DNA of 53,206 nucleotides from NCBI GenBank assembly GCA_027315365.1, contig DAHUYF010000136.1:1-53206 (forward strand), written 5' to 3'. The DNA is from Rhodospirillales bacterium. GTDB taxonomy: Bacteria; Pseudomonadota; Alphaproteobacteria; ATCC43930; CGMCC-115725. Of this stretch, positions 33,080-37,775 are shown piece by piece (position 1 is the stretch's first letter; every line of letters begins with the position of its first letter). Under the pieces are notes generated by a model. That model had not been told where the DNA came from. It was given only the letters and a program-made list of their open reading frames with translations, and searched no databases. Made by a program: the position numbers and the translations under genes.

Positions 33080-33625
33080 CGCACCCTCCGCCGCCGACCG
33101 CCGACCATCGCGACGCCCGATCGGGACGATGCCGGCGCATAACCAGATGGGCATGCAGGGGCGACGAAGAAAGTCGATCTATTCGATTGCCGCCATCGGA
33201 AATTACGATCCATGAGCGAAGTGCCGGCGATCACCTGCGGCGCAGATGCACGCCGATTGCCTCAGCCCGGACGTCCCGCGGTCGCCGCGATGCGGTCTCG
33301 CATCGCCCTGCCGTCGGCGCAGCCATACGGCGTATCATCAAAGCCAACGCCGTTTCCGGAGCGCGGTTCCGATACGCGGAGCGGACAACGGACGACACGA
33401 CGCAGGCTCTCGATGACGCCATGCGCCGCCGGTAGCGGCGGCTCAGTGCTTGCTGGCGCGAGCCGCGATCGCTCTACCGCGTCGTCGGCCCTGGTGCTCG
33501 CTTTTTCGCAAGAATTGCCGGACATTCTACATGATTGTCGCCGGCCTCCGCGGCAGCTTTAACCGGTGCTTTGCCTTCTGGCGGCAGGATTGCTGCCGAT
33601 ACTCGGTTTTGGGAGCACAGCGGCC
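33080..33625. other. Intergenic region without recognised gene
   Basis: About 545 bp upstream of the Nramp gene. Several frames up to about 116 codons exist on the plus strand, but their composition is shadow-like and Arg/Ser/Pro-rich. I see no clear operator or RNA element. Confidence 0.4.
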
Positions 33626-33886
33626 ATGCGGATTCGGTGCATAAAATTGCAGGAGCAGGGAATCGAGTTCTTCGTTGCGCTGGTCAAGGAGGACGTCGTC
33701 GGCGCCGAAGAGCATGCGACACGCACCGTGGCCAATTACGAGAGCATCCTCAATCGGCCGGTCGTGCTCTGCGGCGATCTCTCGGGGAAGTATTTCGGCC
33801 GCTATGATCTGGCGCATCATCTGGCGCGGACCATCGATCCCAGCCGCATCCGCTGGGGCACCTACGAATTCGAGTATCCGGGCTGA
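33626..33886 (+). CDS. Hypothetical protein, 86 residues
   Basis: MRIRCIKLQEQGIEFFVALVKED starts a small mixed alpha/beta protein ending RWGTYEFEYPG. GGGAG ten bases before the ATG and a natural amino-acid composition suggest a real gene. I recognise no family. It borders the FNR-box gene set but has no such box itself. It is convergent with the next gene. Confidence 0.55.
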   Translation: MRIRCIKLQEQGIEFFVALVKEDVVGAEEHATRTVANYESILNRPVVLCGDLSGKYFGRYDLAHHLARTIDPSRIRWGTYEFEYPG

Positions 33887-33896
33887 GGCGCCGCCG

Positions 33897-34139
33897 TCAC
33901 GCCACCCGCACTCCCTGACCGGGCGCCGCGTCGGCGCCTTGACGCCAGAGGCGGAGGTCGACGACCTTCTTGCCGGCCTGCGTCTGCCGCACTGCCCGCA
34001 GCGCCGCTAGGCAGCGCCGCCGCTTCAGCAACCAGCGAAGATCGTCAAGGTCTTCGTCGTCGACGCCGCAAGGCGCGGTCAGCATGGCCAGCAGCCGGTC
34101 GATGTCGCGCAGATCGCGGGCGAGTTCCTCGGAGGTCAT
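33897..34139 (-). CDS. Small hypothetical protein under an FNR-type box
   Basis: An 80-residue charged helical protein: MTSEELARDLRDIDRLLAML followed by DDEDLDDLRWLLKRRRCLAALRAV. No membrane segment. The ATG at 34139 has only a weak ribosome site (AAAGG, 10 bases away); a GTG at 34175 is possible. Its strongest support is the TTGAG-N4-ATCAA box centred 69.5 bp upstream, a mirror of the box before the divergent phasin gene. Function unknown. Confidence 0.55.
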   Translation of the reverse strand: MTSEELARDLRDIDRLLAMLTAPCGVDDEDLDDLRWLLKRRRCLAALRAVRQTQAGKKVVDLRLWRQGADAAPGQGVRVA

Positions 34140-34201
34140 CGCGCACCAGCCTTTCCTGCCTTCGCCTCGCTGCACTCCAGACCAACGGCCGCGGGCGCGC
34201 C

Positions 34202-34215
34202 TTGAGGCAGATCAA
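34202..34215 (-). promoter_or_regulatory. FNR/FixK-type box A
   Basis: TTGAG-GCAG-ATCAA, one mismatch from TTGAT-N4-ATCAA. Its centre is 69.5 bp before the ATG of the minus-strand gene at 34139. Activation at -41.5 would place the transcript start near 34167. Confidence 0.65.
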
Positions 34216-34276
34216 GCGTCCCGACAATCGGCGGCGTGGGCGCCGTTCGCCGCCTGTCCCGCCGCGGCCGAGCGTC

Positions 34277-34290
34277 TTGAGATAGATCAA
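34277..34290 (+). promoter_or_regulatory. FNR/FixK-type box B
   Basis: TTGAG-ATAG-ATCAA centred 63.5 bp before the phasin ATG. Activation at -41.5 would start RNA near 34325, with TGACAT (34313-34318) as a plausible -10. A weaker TTGAT-CTTC-TTCAA follows at 34318-34331, over the predicted start, where binding could repress. Confidence 0.7.
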
Positions 34291-34346
34291 TGTGCCGCCT
34301 GCCCGGCGGTGGTGACATTGATCTTCTTCAAGCCGGAGGATCAGCC

Positions 34347-34712
34347 ATGCCAGACGACGCCAAGGCCGCGCGGCCGCAGCCGATGACGAAACACCCGCCG
34401 GAGAGCCCGGTGCCGAATTACGCCGCCTTCTTCGGCGGCGGCCAGCAAACTTTCTCGCGCTGGATGCAAGGCATGTTCACGCTTTCCCAGGAGATCACGC
34501 GCTTCACCCAGGGCCGGGTGCAGGAAGACATGGCGGCATGGTGGGCGCTTGCCTCCTGCCGCACTCCCGAGGAGGCCGCGAACTGCCAGCAGCGCTTTGC
34601 CGCCAAGGCGGTCGAGGAATATTCCGAAGAGATCACCAAGCTGTCGCAGATGATGATGACGGTGGCGACGGAGGGTCTCTCCGCGGCGCGACGGCCTGTG
34701 GCGGACGGCTGA
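34347..34712 (+). CDS. Phasin-family protein
   Basis: A 121-residue, mostly helical protein. FSRWMQGMFTLSQEITRFTQ, then VQEDMAAWWALASCRTPEEAANCQQRFAAKAVEEYSEE split over two helices, matches the phasin pattern (QEDM-x-x-W-x-x-L-x-x-C-x-[ST]-P-E-E). Phasins coat polyhydroxyalkanoate granules. GGAGG lies before the ATG. The upstream FNR-type box suggests induction when oxygen falls, when polyester storage is common. No PHA synthase is in the window. Confidence 0.8.
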   Translation: MPDDAKAARPQPMTKHPPESPVPNYAAFFGGGQQTFSRWMQGMFTLSQEITRFTQGRVQEDMAAWWALASCRTPEEAANCQQRFAAKAVEEYSEEITKLSQMMMTVATEGLSAARRPVADG

Positions 34713-34731
34713 CCGGAGGCCTCTTGGCGGT

Positions 34732-34745
34732 TTGATGCAGGTCAA
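34732..34745 (+). promoter_or_regulatory. FNR/FixK-type box C
   Basis: TTGAT-GCAG-GTCAA centred 107.5 bp before the lipoprotein ATG at 34846. Activation at -41.5 would start RNA near 34780, with TAGCCT (34768-34773) as a weak -10. Confidence 0.7.
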
Positions 34746-34845
34746 TGAATCCGGCGTTTCGGACGCATAGCCTGTTGATGTCAAAGGAGTTGCCCGTCTA
34801 CGGCGTGCCGCTGCCGCGGCGCGCCGTCCCTGCAAGGAGAAAAAC

Positions 34846-35112
34846 ATGCAATTTATCAAGCGTAGTCTCGTCGCCCTGGTGCCGGTGATCGCTCTCGGGG
34901 CCTGCACGCAGCTGAGCGATCAGGATCGGGCGCTGCTGACCGCGGCGAGCCAGAACGCCGAGCAGGCCAAGGTCCTGGCACAGCAGGCGCTCGACGCGTC
35001 TCGCGCTGCTCAGGCGAGCGCCAGCCAGGCGGCCGCCGATGCCAAGTCGGCGAATGAAAAGGCCGACCGTATGTTCCAGCGCTCGCTGCGCAAGGTGGCG
35101 CCGTCGCAGTAG
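34846..35112 (+). CDS. Lpp-like alanine-zipper lipoprotein
   Basis: An 88-residue protein. A signal peptide ends in lipobox IALGAC (Cys near residue 20). The mature part is a heptad-like Ala-rich coiled coil (ASQNAEQAKVLAQQALDASR and AADAKSANEKADRMF), as in Lpp/OprI lipoproteins that brace the outer membrane. It lacks the C-terminal Lys used for peptidoglycan linkage in Lpp, ending KVAPSQ. AAGGAG precedes the ATG. Box C upstream suggests oxygen-dependent control. Confidence 0.8.
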   Translation: MQFIKRSLVALVPVIALGACTQLSDQDRALLTAASQNAEQAKVLAQQALDASRAAQASASQAAADAKSANEKADRMFQRSLRKVAPSQ

Positions 35113-35125
35113 CCGGCGATGGCGT

Positions 35126-35157
35126 GCGGCGAGGATGGCGAACAACCTCCTCGCCGC
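35126..35157. terminator. Hairpin between convergent lipoprotein and hibernation-factor genes
   Basis: GCGGCGAGGA (35126-35135) pairs perfectly with TCCTCGCCGC (35148-35157). No T tract; it may act in both directions. Confidence 0.45.
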
Positions 35158-35188
35158 GACCGGATCGTCCGAACGGTCCCGTCGTGCA

Positions 35189-35761
35189 TCACGGCGCCAG
35201 ATGATGTTTTCCGACAGCGACTACGGTGCTCGCCTGCGGGCCCTTTTCTCCTTCACCCTCATGGACGACGTAGCGGACTTCGTCGCCCTCCGAGAGCGCG
35301 TCGAAACCGTCGCCGGTGACGGCGTTGCGGTGCATGTAGACCTCGTCGCCCTCGCTCGATTGGATGAAGCCGTAGCCCTCGGCCTTGAAGAGCCGGGCGA
35401 TATGGCCATGGCTCTGCGCCTCATGGGCCTTGATATCGCCGCGCGCGTGTCGCGCATGATCCTCGATCTGGCGGCGCGTCGCATCGAAGGCGTCGCGCAC
35501 CGCGACCAGTATGTCCTCGTGCGCGTGATGCTCGGGGGGATCGCGGTTGACGACGATCTCGCGCCCGGGAACGGTGAGATCGACGCGCACATGATAGAGC
35601 CTGCCCCTGTGCTGATGGCGGCCGCTCGCCTCGACCACCACGTGGCAGGCCATGATTCTTCCGAAGAACCGGTCGAGGGCGTCGACCCGCTCGCGGATAT
35701 GCGCTTCCACGGCCGGCGATGGGTCCATGTTGCGGAAGGTGATCTGTACCGGGAGCTGCAT
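35189..35761 (-). CDS. HPF/RaiA ribosome-hibernation domain fused to a cold-shock domain
   Basis: A 190-residue two-domain protein. Residues 1-105 are the HPF/RaiA (sigma-54 modulation) fold, MQLPVQITFRNMDPSPAVEA to DILVAVRDAFDATRRQI, which sits in the ribosomal decoding centre. Residues 117-185 are a cold-shock (OB-fold) domain with RNP1-like GYGFIQ and RNP2-like VYMHRNAV. GGAG six bases before ATG 35761 fixes the start; upstream in-frame sequence is unconserved. A perfect FNR-type box lies 79.5 bp upstream. Such fusions exist in other proteobacteria; a role in silencing ribosomes at low oxygen is inferred. Confidence 0.85.
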   Translation of the reverse strand: MQLPVQITFRNMDPSPAVEAHIRERVDALDRFFGRIMACHVVVEASGRHQHRGRLYHVRVDLTVPGREIVVNRDPPEHHAHEDILVAVRDAFDATRRQIEDHARHARGDIKAHEAQSHGHIARLFKAEGYGFIQSSEGDEVYMHRNAVTGDGFDALSEGDEVRYVVHEGEGEKGPQASTVVAVGKHHLAP

Positions 35762-35833
35762 TGACGTCTCCGAAGCCGAAGAGCCTGCGGACGGCTCACG
35801 TTCCCATATGAGCCGATTCCGCCGCCGAGCCCC

Positions 35834-35847
35834 TTGATGCAGATCAA
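35834..35847 (-). promoter_or_regulatory. FNR/FixK-type box D (perfect)
   Basis: TTGAT-GCAG-ATCAA, an exact match to TTGAT-N4-ATCAA. Its centre is 79.5 bp before the ATG of the hibernation-factor gene, giving a predicted RNA start near 35799. Confidence 0.75.
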
Positions 35848-35881
35848 GCGGGCCTCGGGCGCGGGCTGGCGGGCGGCGCGA

Positions 35882-35895
35882 TTGACCTGCATCAA
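35882..35895 (+). promoter_or_regulatory. FNR/FixK-type box E
   Basis: TTGAC-CTGC-ATCAA; on the other strand it reads TTGAT-GCAG-GTCAA, identical to box C. Its centre is 59.5 bp before the DUF3775 gene, giving a predicted RNA start near 35930. Boxes D and E are 48 bp apart and face divergent genes. Confidence 0.7.
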
Positions 35896-35947
35896 GGTGC
35901 GAGACGGCGATCACCGCTTCACTGTCCGGGATCGGAAGGAGCGGCAG

Positions 35948-36382
35948 ATGGCCGAGAACGAGAAGGACACCGCACCGGAGCTGAACGTCAGCGCGGAAAA
36001 GCTCTGCTACATCATTGTCAAGGCGCGCGAATTCGACGCCAAGGTGGACCCGGTCGAGCCCGACCCCGGCTCGAACCCGACCGATGACGATGCGCGCGAG
36101 GTGCTGGAGGATTACGCCGATGATCCGACATTGGCGGAGCTGCGTGCCGCCATCGACGGCCTAAACGAGGACGAGATCGTCGACGTCATCGCCCTGGCGT
36201 GGCTCGGGCGGGCCGATTTCGCGAAGGAGGAATGGGTGGAGGCGAGGGCGCTCGCCCGGGAGCGGCACCGGCACCACTCCGCGAGCTATCTCGTCGGCAT
36301 GCCGGCGCTCGGCGACTATCTCGAGGAAGGAATGGCGGCGCTGGGATATTCCTGCGAGGATTACGAGGCCGGCCGGCTCTGA
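35948..36382 (+). CDS. DUF3775-family protein
   Basis: A 144-residue acidic soluble protein. LNVSAEKLCYIIVKAREFDAK, an acidic Asp/Glu-rich loop, then INGLNEDE-like AIDGLNEDEIVDVIALAWLGR and SYLVGMPALGDYLEEGMAALG fit DUF3775, a proteobacterial family of unknown function. AAGGAG stands seven bases before the ATG. It is divergent from the hibernation-factor gene, each with its own FNR-type box, so it probably belongs to the same low-oxygen response. Confidence 0.8.
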   Translation: MAENEKDTAPELNVSAEKLCYIIVKAREFDAKVDPVEPDPGSNPTDDDAREVLEDYADDPTLAELRAAIDGLNEDEIVDVIALAWLGRADFAKEEWVEARALARERHRHHSASYLVGMPALGDYLEEGMAALGYSCEDYEAGRL

Positions 36383-36479
36383 CGCTGGCGGCATTCACCC
36401 GCGCCGGCGGAATATCGCCGCGGCGCCGGGGCGTTGCGGATGTGGCATGCTGCTCTCCGGCTTACCGAGGAGCGCCGCC

Positions 36480-37775
36480 ATGAGCCTTGATCTGATCGTC
36501 CGCAACGCCGCGCTGGCCGACGGCCGCGCCGGCATCGACCTTGCCGTCGAGGGCGGCCGTTTCGTCGCCATCGCGCCGGCCGTCGCCGCCGCTGCGCGCC
36601 GCGAGATCGACGCGGCCGGGCGGCTGGTGACGCCGCCCTTCGTCGACGCCCATTTCCATCTCGACGCGACGCTTACTCTCGGCCTCGGCGGCAAGGTCAA
36701 CGAATCCGGGACGCTGGCGGAAGGCATCCGCCTCTGGTCGGAACTGCAGCCGCACCTTACCGCCGAGGCGCTGCGCGAGCGCGCGTTGGCCTATTGCGAT
36801 CTCGCGGCAAGCCAGGGGCTGCTCGCCATCCGCAGCCATGTCGATGTCAGCGACGACGCGCTGACCGGCGCCGAGGTGCTGGTCGAGGTGAAGCGCCAGG
36901 TGGCGCCCTATCTCGACCTGCAGCTCGTCGCGTTCCCGCAGATGGGCTACTTCTCCAAGCCGTCGGTGGCGGAGAACATCCGGCGGGCGCTGGCGCTGGG
37001 GGTCGATGCGGTGGGCGGCATCCCGCACCTGGAGCCCACGGCCGAACTCGGCCGCGACTCCATTGCAGCGCTATGCGGCATCGCCGCCGAGCGCGGCCTG
37101 CTCGTCGACATGCATTGCGACGAGACCGACGATCCGGCCTCGCGGCAGGTGGAGACGCTGGCCTACGAGACGCGGCGGCTCGGGCTTTCGGGCCGCGTCA
37201 CCGGCTCGCATCTCTGCTCGTTGCATTCCATGGACAATTTCTACGCGGCGCGCCTTATCGGCCAGATCGCGGCGGCCGGCCTCGCGGCGGTGGCGAATCC
37301 GCTGGCCAACATGGTGCTGCAGGGCCGCTTCGACAGCTATCCCAAGCGCCGCGGCATGACGCGGGTGCCGGAGCTGATGGCGGCCGGCTGCGCCGTGGCG
37401 CTCGGCCATGACAGCGTGCTCGATCCCTGGTATCCGCTCGGACGCGCCGACATGCTCGACGTGGCGCATATGGCCGTGCATGCCGGGCACATGACCAGCC
37501 AGGCCGGCATGCGCGCCTGCTTCGCCGCGGTGACGGAAACTCCGGCGCGCATCCTGGGACTCGAGCGCTACGGCATCGCCGTTGGCTGCCACGCCGATTT
37601 CGTGATCCTGCAGGCGCGCGATCCCGTGGAGGCGATCCGCCTCAGGCCCGCGCGGCTCGTCGTGGTGCGGCGCGGCCGGGTCGTCGCCGAGACCGCGCCG
37701 GCGGTCAGTCGCTTGAGTCTGGCGGGCCGGCCGGACAGCGTCGATCCTGCCACGATAGGGGCGATCGGACTCTAG
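36480..37775 (+). CDS. Cytosine-deaminase-like amidohydrolase
   Basis: A 431-residue metal-dependent amidohydrolase of the CodA group. PPFVDAHFHLDATLTLG has the metal HxH, LVAFPQMGYFS the substrate Gln, HCDETDD the third His and catalytic Glu, TGSHLCSLHSM the fourth His, and GHDSVLDPWYPLG the metal Asp. It probably deaminates cytosine or a related ring compound. ATG 36480 with GAGGAG upstream is preferred to one 11 codons earlier. No permease gene is linked. Confidence 0.85.
   Translation: MSLDLIVRNAALADGRAGIDLAVEGGRFVAIAPAVAAAARREIDAAGRLVTPPFVDAHFHLDATLTLGLGGKVNESGTLAEGIRLWSELQPHLTAEALRERALAYCDLAASQGLLAIRSHVDVSDDALTGAEVLVEVKRQVAPYLDLQLVAFPQMGYFSKPSVAENIRRALALGVDAVGGIPHLEPTAELGRDSIAALCGIAAERGLLVDMHCDETDDPASRQVETLAYETRRLGLSGRVTGSHLCSLHSMDNFYAARLIGQIAAAGLAAVANPLANMVLQGRFDSYPKRRGMTRVPELMAAGCAVALGHDSVLDPWYPLGRADMLDVAHMAVHAGHMTSQAGMRACFAAVTETPARILGLERYGIAVGCHADFVILQARDPVEAIRLRPARLVVVRRGRVVAETAPAVSRLSLAGRPDSVDPATIGAIGL

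Follow-up and report, generated by a model that had tools for sequence, protein, structure and literature searches.

A dense patch of FixK/FNR-type boxes before five small genes, one of them for the ribosome-hibernation protein HPFcold, in a Rhodospirillales genome

FixK/FNR regulons are known mostly for genes of respiration, denitrification and symbiosis. Here we describe a 53,206-base stretch of contig DAHUYF010000136.1 from a Rhodospirillales bacterium (assembly GCA_027315365.1), called the window below, in which five small genes are each preceded by a 14-bp palindromic box of the FixK/FNR type, TTGAN6TCAA. The genes encode a phasin, an Lpp-like lipoprotein, a hibernation protein of the HPFcold type, a DUF3775 protein and an 80-residue protein. 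The same box and the same kinds of regulator occur in the FixK/FnrL regulons of Alphaproteobacteria, in the excerpts used here of the studies that describe them (Dufour 2010, PMC2908626; Tsoy 2016, PMC4999443; PMC6515984), and our genome has a large part of their core, with cbb3 oxidase, Fix, FixL, Usp, CBS, Hsp20 and HlyD/ABC genes. Table 1 of Dufour 2010 has FixL, Hsp20, CBS, HlyD and ABC genes in the FixK set (PMC2908626), and the differential-expression tables of a microoxia study in B. diazoefficiens include phasin, CBS, Usp and host-attachment proteins (PMC6515984). No hibernation factor is named in these excerpts; the word "hibernation" is absent from the main text of PMC6515984, and "phasin" from the main texts of PMC2908626 and PMC4999443. 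HPFcold, the DUF3775 protein, the Lpp-like lipoprotein and the 80-residue protein look like additions to the known regulons. Among the papers listed from the open-licence part of PMC we found none that joins FixK or FNR with HPFcold, with no search pairing FixK with "hibernation" alone.

HPFcold was described as CBU_0020 of Coxiella burnetii (PDB 9t0z chain 9; PMC13392368, 2026), where it occupies the decoding centre of the 70S ribosome with its cold-shock domain on the anti-Shine-Dalgarno. The sections of that paper used here give no control circuit for it and make no mention of oxygen, whereas the gene in the window has a FixK-type box. The closest parallel is RafH of mycobacteria, which is raised in hypoxia through DosR, keeps 70S monosomes and, like HPFcold, meets the anti-Shine-Dalgarno, with its C-terminal domain and from within a hypoxia regulon (excerpts of PMC10799931). 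RafH differs from HPFcold in that this domain is the one of long HPF and not a cold-shock domain, and it belongs to another regulator and another phylum, so we treat the resemblance of the regulons as an analogy. For the promoters, pioABC of R. palustris offers a class II FixK promoter with TTGA(N6)TCAA near the -35 region and only a sigma-70-like -10 element, as here; the passages on it place its box at -44.5 (PMC3050613), compared with a putative position near -41.5 in our case.

The features of the patch are these:

33897-34139, minus strand: 80-residue protein, function unknown, start ATG at 34139.
34174-34179, minus strand: putative -10-like hexamer TGGAGT of the 80-residue protein gene; start point predicted at 34167 by the -41.5 rule.
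34202-34215, minus strand: FixK/FNR-type box TTGATCTGCCTCAA for the 80-residue protein gene, a perfect match; centre 69.5 bp from the start codon.
34277-34290, plus strand: FixK/FNR-type box TTGAGATAGATCAA for the phasin gene; centre 63.5 bp from the start codon.
34313-34318, plus strand: putative -10-like hexamer TGACAT of the phasin gene; predicted start point 34325.
34318-34331, plus strand: sixth TTGAN6TCAA match TTGATCTTCTTCAA, probably not functional.
34347-34712, plus strand: phasin, 121 residues (PF09361 Phasin_2, E 3.9e-12).
34732-34745, plus strand: FixK/FNR-type box TTGATGCAGGTCAA for the lipoprotein gene; centre 107.5 bp from the start codon.
34768-34773, plus strand: -10-like hexamer TAGCCT of the lipoprotein gene; predicted start point 34780.
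34846-35112, plus strand: alanine-zipper (Lpp-like) lipoprotein, 88 residues (PF11839, E 1.7e-07).
35189-35761, minus strand: HPFcold, an HPF/S30AE domain plus a cold-shock domain, 190 residues (PF02482, E 1.4e-16; PF00313, E 2.6e-14).
35806-35811, minus strand: putative -10-like hexamer TCATAT of the HPFcold gene; predicted start point 35799.
35834-35847, minus strand: FixK/FNR-type box TTGATCTGCATCAA for HPFcold; centre 79.5 bp from the start codon.
35882-35895, plus strand: FixK/FNR-type box TTGACCTGCATCAA for the DUF3775 gene; centre 59.5 bp from the start at 35948.
35918-35923, plus strand: putative -10-like hexamer TTCACT of the DUF3775 gene; predicted start point 35930.
35948-36382, plus strand: DUF3775 protein, 144 residues, function unknown (PF12616, E 1.1e-26).

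All five boxes that an initial annotation of the window had reported (at 34202, 34277, 34732, 35834 and 35882) are present, they lie 60-108 bp before start codons as it said, and both of its divergent gene pairs exist. It had seen no box elsewhere in the 53 kb, which holds except for one match that it missed, at 34318-34331. The resulting six matches compare with a mean of 0.07 in shuffles of the window, and none of 100 shuffles reached six. The whole genome (G000; 4,966,495 bases in 215 contigs) contains 89 sites, and the reversed pattern occurs in it only 4 times. At that average density (89 in 4.97 Mb) about 0.03 boxes are expected per 1.7 kb, and the patch is far above this. The genome scan for box density that had been proposed as a check also came out in favor of the patch: of the 84 sites examined, at most 3 fall in any other span of 1.7 kb, so that this one is the densest. 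A start codon follows within 350 bp at 73 of the 84 sites (at 30% of random positions) and at a distance of 35-135 bp at 59 of them (9.2%), with genes called by a simple home-made script, a random background drawn from larger stretches picked around boxes and regulators, and two of the five sites left out (on contigs C52 and C59) having unusual cores, which possibly flatters the figures slightly. Boxes occur at many other places in the genome as well. The FixK/FnrN consensus TTGANCNNGATCAANG given in the excerpt of PMC4999443 is identical to the genome-wide consensus of the box (Y5, R10, G at +2). One other perfect box, at G000:C188:3055 (L203), lies 43.5 bp before a gene that resembles a transposase by eye.

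In a class II promoter of the FNR type the site is near -41.5 and the -10 hexamer falls 23 bases after the box, and we fixed this position before making any alignment. In an alignment of the 95 directions that face a gene, G stands out at +2, and the next clear preferences come only at +23 (T), +24 (A) and +28 (T). The score for TANNNT peaks at +23 with a mean of 1.31 of 3, compared with 0.48 (standard deviation 0.11) at other offsets, and the 66 directions without a facing gene have a mean of 0.62 at +23. Full TANNNT occurs 12 times in the 95 at +23, 6 times at +22, 3 times at +24 and at most twice at any other offset. The five gene-box pairs of the window read TGGAGT, TGACAT, TAGCCT, TCATAT and TTCACT at +23, all with T at both ends; at other offsets this is the case in 86 of 3008 hexamers (2.9%). 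The remaining seven directions of the window's six sites score 0 (six of them, including the opposite direction of the box for the 80-residue protein gene) or 1 (one) of 3. Hexamers with terminal Ts are found in one direction only, and therefore each box can be assigned to one gene. A consensus scan found no sigma-70 promoter with a -35 element in 33500-36800, and Rfam gave nothing there at gathering scores. Five sites, plus one doubtful one, have the TTGAN6TCAA palindrome of FNR/FixK class II promoters, and the five have a -10-like element at the fixed distance that would centre the site near -41.5 from the predicted start point.

The doubtful site is the match at 34318. It is probably there by chance, because its core scores fifth worst of the 84 sites and it overlaps the predicted start point of the phasin gene (its centre is 22.5 bp from the phasin start codon); at +23 it scores 0 and 1 of 3 in its two directions. 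We judged it unlikely to be a functional site on core score. The initial annotation had also found that four of the five boxes share a GCAG core in the gene-facing orientation, and this did not survive the assignment by -10 elements, after which only the lipoprotein box reads GCAG; the boxes of the 80-residue, HPFcold and DUF3775 proteins read CTGC and the phasin box ATAG. We rejected the GCAG core as a signature, and the asymmetry has little meaning because the site is palindromic.

The window's HPFcold is the same two-domain fusion as the Coxiella protein, which it matches over residues 1-182 of 190 (E 3.2e-43 to 9t0z chain 9). Both the S30AE domain and the cold-shock domain are over their cut-offs in the one protein, and an alignment of 10 sequences, with that of the window among them, shows the latter to be conserved. 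By family membership, the protein would bind the 30S decoding site and the anti-Shine-Dalgarno. Its box has the top-scoring core among the window's six sites. The sole other S30AE protein in the genome (G000:C202:29623-29901, L226) is of the long type by length and lies between rpoN-like and ptsN-like genes (names from sequence reading), and we found no FixK-type box in 3.3 kb around it, even at one mismatch. With a box at only one of the two HPF genes, the second HPF is a built-in control in the same genome. HPFcold adjoins a DUF3775 gene in three loci of relatives (L016, L017, L062; in L017 this is known by alignment only) and in the window at 35189-36382, in same-strand, convergent or divergent arrangement, a recurrence hinting at a shared role. 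At L023:5423-6573, HPFcold is divergent from a phasin gene, and two boxes with one mismatch each lie within the gap between them or at its border.

For the phasin, Phasin_2 scores 46.7 bits (curated cut-off 24.9) and TIGR01841 stays under its cut-off. The lipoprotein has the alanine-zipper family PF11839 at 31.9 bits (Pfam cut-off 23.1) and an LGAC motif that we take to be its lipobox; we call it Lpp-like only, because the NCBIfam Lpp/OprI model NF040598 gives 29.9 bits, under its cut-off of 43. The 80-residue protein has zero matches in Pfam, NCBIfam and PHROGs, and the only match that PHROGs gave was a cold-shock one; a single-sequence model shows three helices, two of them long and one short (mean pLDDT, a predicted local confidence score, of 72). 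The DUF3775 frame is open back to 35837, and we consider the start at 35948 more likely because the same-genus orthologues in L145-L147 begin there. A model of this protein from three sequences is helical (pLDDT 80.8); Foldseek found nothing at E <= 0.001 and Z in VIA-align did not exceed 3.4, which excludes nothing, and we dropped the attempt to read a function from a model with no confident fold match. One paper on DUF3775, concerning an insect, came up in the literature search of open-licence PMC.

Contig C61 of the same genome carries 18 boxes. The part at 14232-73013 (L042-L045) has a CcoNOQP/FixGHIS-like operon, a FixL/FixJ pair and Usp, CBS and Hsp20 genes, and further a host-attachment family protein, a polyhydroxyalkanoate (PHA) synthase with a box upstream, a second DUF3775 protein and an ATP-synthase-like operon; many of these are boxed. 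Pfam was run on ten of the proteins, and the oxidase, Fix, Usp and ATP-synthase names come from reading the sequences. The island resembles the FixK set of Dufour 2010 in the table used here (PMC2908626). Its FixL matches the haem-PAS FixL chains 1d06 (E 1.5e-41) and 1dp6 (E 3.7e-41), and a FixJ-like response regulator adjoins it. The Crp/FNR helix-turn-helix family is found in 11 places in the genome, 8 of them over the cut-off. The one on C3 is a regulator of the FNR type whose open frame has a CX2CX7C cluster, CESCGARALSIC, close to the N-terminus; its best PDB match is FixK2 (4i2o, E 4.5e-36), with FNR-type regulators at E 3e-30. Another, on C130, is of the FixK type and has no cysteine cluster from its likely start onward. 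The genome has candidate cognate regulators for the boxes in these two and in the FixL/FixJ pair. That the sites are of the FNR/FixK type, as first proposed, agrees with their fit to the FixK/FnrN consensus, their class II spacing and these regulators. The patch is a dense part of a genome-wide regulon of a known kind, with about 75 sites.

We also looked for boxes within 300 bp upstream of homologues in relatives, of which G001-G003 are in the same genus. Genomes of the family have 14 to 140 sites and four others of the order 18 to 33, so by chance a box is expected upstream of about 0.1-0.9% of genes. For HPF we used 25 of 29 non-self loci, having dropped L081, L084, L087 and L088 (they match the HPF part only and have no box) and not counted cold-shock-only matches, which had no locus. 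We used 8 of 20 non-self matches for the phasin (the 12 weaker ones have no box) and 15 of 22 for the lipoprotein (among the other seven only L134 holds a perfect match); 29 of 38 DUF3775 matches had a locus. A box precedes six of the eight phasin matches, and one lies 59.5 bp before HPFcold in Reyranella massiliensis 521, a relative in culture. Within the genus it precedes HPFcold in 2/2 cases (once at 233.5 bp), the 80-residue protein gene in 1/1 (the G003 orthologue, 54% identity, E 4.6e-19, box 67.5 bp upstream), the main DUF3775 gene in 3/3 and the phasin gene in 3/4, the fourth having one mismatch at the same distance. Further DUF3775 paralogues of the genus are boxed in two of the three tested, with two more outside the count. 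For the lipoprotein it is three of the six tested, and the unboxed ones are two weak paralogues and a G002 copy with 75 bp of upstream sequence; two still weaker matches are outside the count. The lipoprotein hexamer TAGCCT is identically placed in one G003 orthologue (L119) and reads TAGGCT in G001.

With the sites, their spacing, the regulator genes and many gene-box pairs of close relatives in hand, we consider it highly probable that the five genes each have their own class II FNR/FixK-type promoter and are satellites of a genome-wide low-oxygen regulon. Each promoter would lack a -35 element and combine a 14-bp box, its centre near -41.5, with a -10-like element that follows 23 bases later. 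The regulon would be run by FixLJ with the FixK-type regulator and/or the cysteine-bearing FNR-type regulator, and as oxygen falls the regulator would bind each box and switch the genes on separately. HPFcold would then park 70S ribosomes and shield the anti-Shine-Dalgarno end of the 16S rRNA, and the phasin may work at PHA granules, a role suggested by the box that also lies upstream of the PHA synthase gene on C61. Oxygen as the signal, the identity of the acting regulator and the physiology of stasis are what we infer in this scheme.

Several observations weigh against this reading. Expression, binding and the start points of the five promoters are predicted from sequence, and the gene starts come from a home-made caller. 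The -10 hexamers of the window are weak, with full TANNNT in only one of five (and in only 12 of 95 genome-wide), and a +23 hexamer with both terminal Ts is also seen in 17 of the 86 directions that lie outside the window. Among 28 picked boxes of relatives the mean at +23 is the highest at 1.07, but +31 reaches 0.93, and several same-genus boxes, including all four before the main DUF3775 gene, score 0 at +23. In more distant relatives the box is frequently absent. Across all matches used, it is found before 7 of 25 HPF genes and missing in 18, before 1 of 6 genes for the 80-residue protein and missing in 5, before 3 of 15 lipoprotein genes and missing in 12, and before 13 of 29 DUF3775 genes and missing in 16; of the own genome's three DUF3775 genes, the copy on C19 (L166) has no box. 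The cysteines of the C3 regulator lie before the start that the caller chose. Lastly, while the acting regulator would be of the FixK and/or FNR type, an NnrR-like protein on C21 might bind the same sites.

The initial annotation had read the five genes as a low-oxygen stasis module, and one could suppose that they are kept together as a functional unit. The density of the patch fits this, as do the places where HPFcold lies beside DUF3775 (L016, L017, L062) or beside a phasin (L023). Yet the G003 orthologues have other neighbours and are spread over four contigs (the 80-residue protein on C459, phasin and HPFcold on C689, the lipoprotein on C114, DUF3775 on C196). Even the phasin and HPFcold genes are separated by 8 kb, and each has a box of its own. 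The G003 assembly consists of 760 contigs, with the lipoprotein and DUF3775 genes near contig ends, so that only some of the distances can be read from it. The 80-residue protein gene is present in only 7 of 45 genomes, our own included, and we saw the five-gene order in none of the relatives' loci viewed, most of which span 1.5 kb each way. A module conserved as a unit is not supported, and we hold this reading to be unlikely. What is conserved is regulon membership and not gene order, because the G003 orthologues are scattered and have kept their boxes individually. The joint conservation that was proposed as a check came out divided in the same way, with many gene-box pairs kept in close relatives and the order of the genes lost. 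Of the stasis reading itself, preparing ribosomes for arrest is reasonable for the HPFcold gene because the protein belongs to a ribosome-hibernation family. Taken as a whole, the observation in the initial annotation is partly confirmed and its interpretation partly supported.

The boxes could also be bound mainly by a relative of the nitric-oxide-responsive NnrR/DNR type, so that the genes answer to nitric oxide or denitrification. Regulators across the Crp/FNR superfamily have similar half-sites, and the NnrR-like regulator on C21 is beside an NnrS-like gene and a boxed nor-like operon with a NorB-like gene (names from sequence, not from a family search). However, the genome-wide consensus (Y5, R10, G at +2) is that of FixK/FnrN, the main cluster of boxes is the cbb3/Fix-FixLJ island, and two other regulators have what we presume to be a recognition helix of the E-SR type. 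We regard control by nitric oxide as very unlikely. That the boxes cluster by chance, or as an artefact of base composition in a GC-rich genome, is practically untenable: the match at 34318 looks fortuitous and the reversed pattern suggests about 4 chance sites per genome, but for the other five sites together it is refuted, and the boxes as a group are real, because of the shuffles, the reversed-pattern control, the upstream placement, the -10 signal and the retention in close relatives.

Under the preferred reading, with five separate promoters in one low-oxygen regulon, novelty lies in regulon membership, and HPFcold is apparently its most important new member. A more tentative suggestion, which we put forward as possible only, is that this is an independent hypoxia stasis programme using the same trick as DosR and RafH, with HPFcold under FixK/FNR and the second HPF outside, and in relatives a capping and mending of the ribosome through RtcB and archease. 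According to the excerpt used here of a review (PMC12186496), the 16S 3' end that MazF cuts in E. coli is joined again by RtcB. There are 15 RtcB loci in the relatives, and nine of them have archease called directly upstream of RtcB (confirmed by Pfam in 4/4 tested). Five of the nine (L212, L213, L215, L216, L225) have a FixK-type box no more than 150 bp from the start called for archease, and in a sixth the box is before an Hsp20 gene just upstream. None of the four RtcB loci without archease is boxed, and of two loci of uncertain type L211 has no box and L220 has two. In G001, G011 and G027 the archease-RtcB pair is beside HPFcold, and in G001 the pair has no box of its own. The window's own genome has zero RtcB matches, so this lead is limited to relatives. 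If the suggestion is true, in some relatives the regulon both caps (HPFcold) and mends (RtcB/archease) the 16S 3' end.

The -10 alignment shows how far DNA sequence alone can reach for claims on promoter class. A box at class II spacing before HPFcold predicts that oxygen sensing switches on a defined ribosome-parking protein. While the switch itself is familiar, this box would link oxygen sensing with ribosome hibernation in this group.

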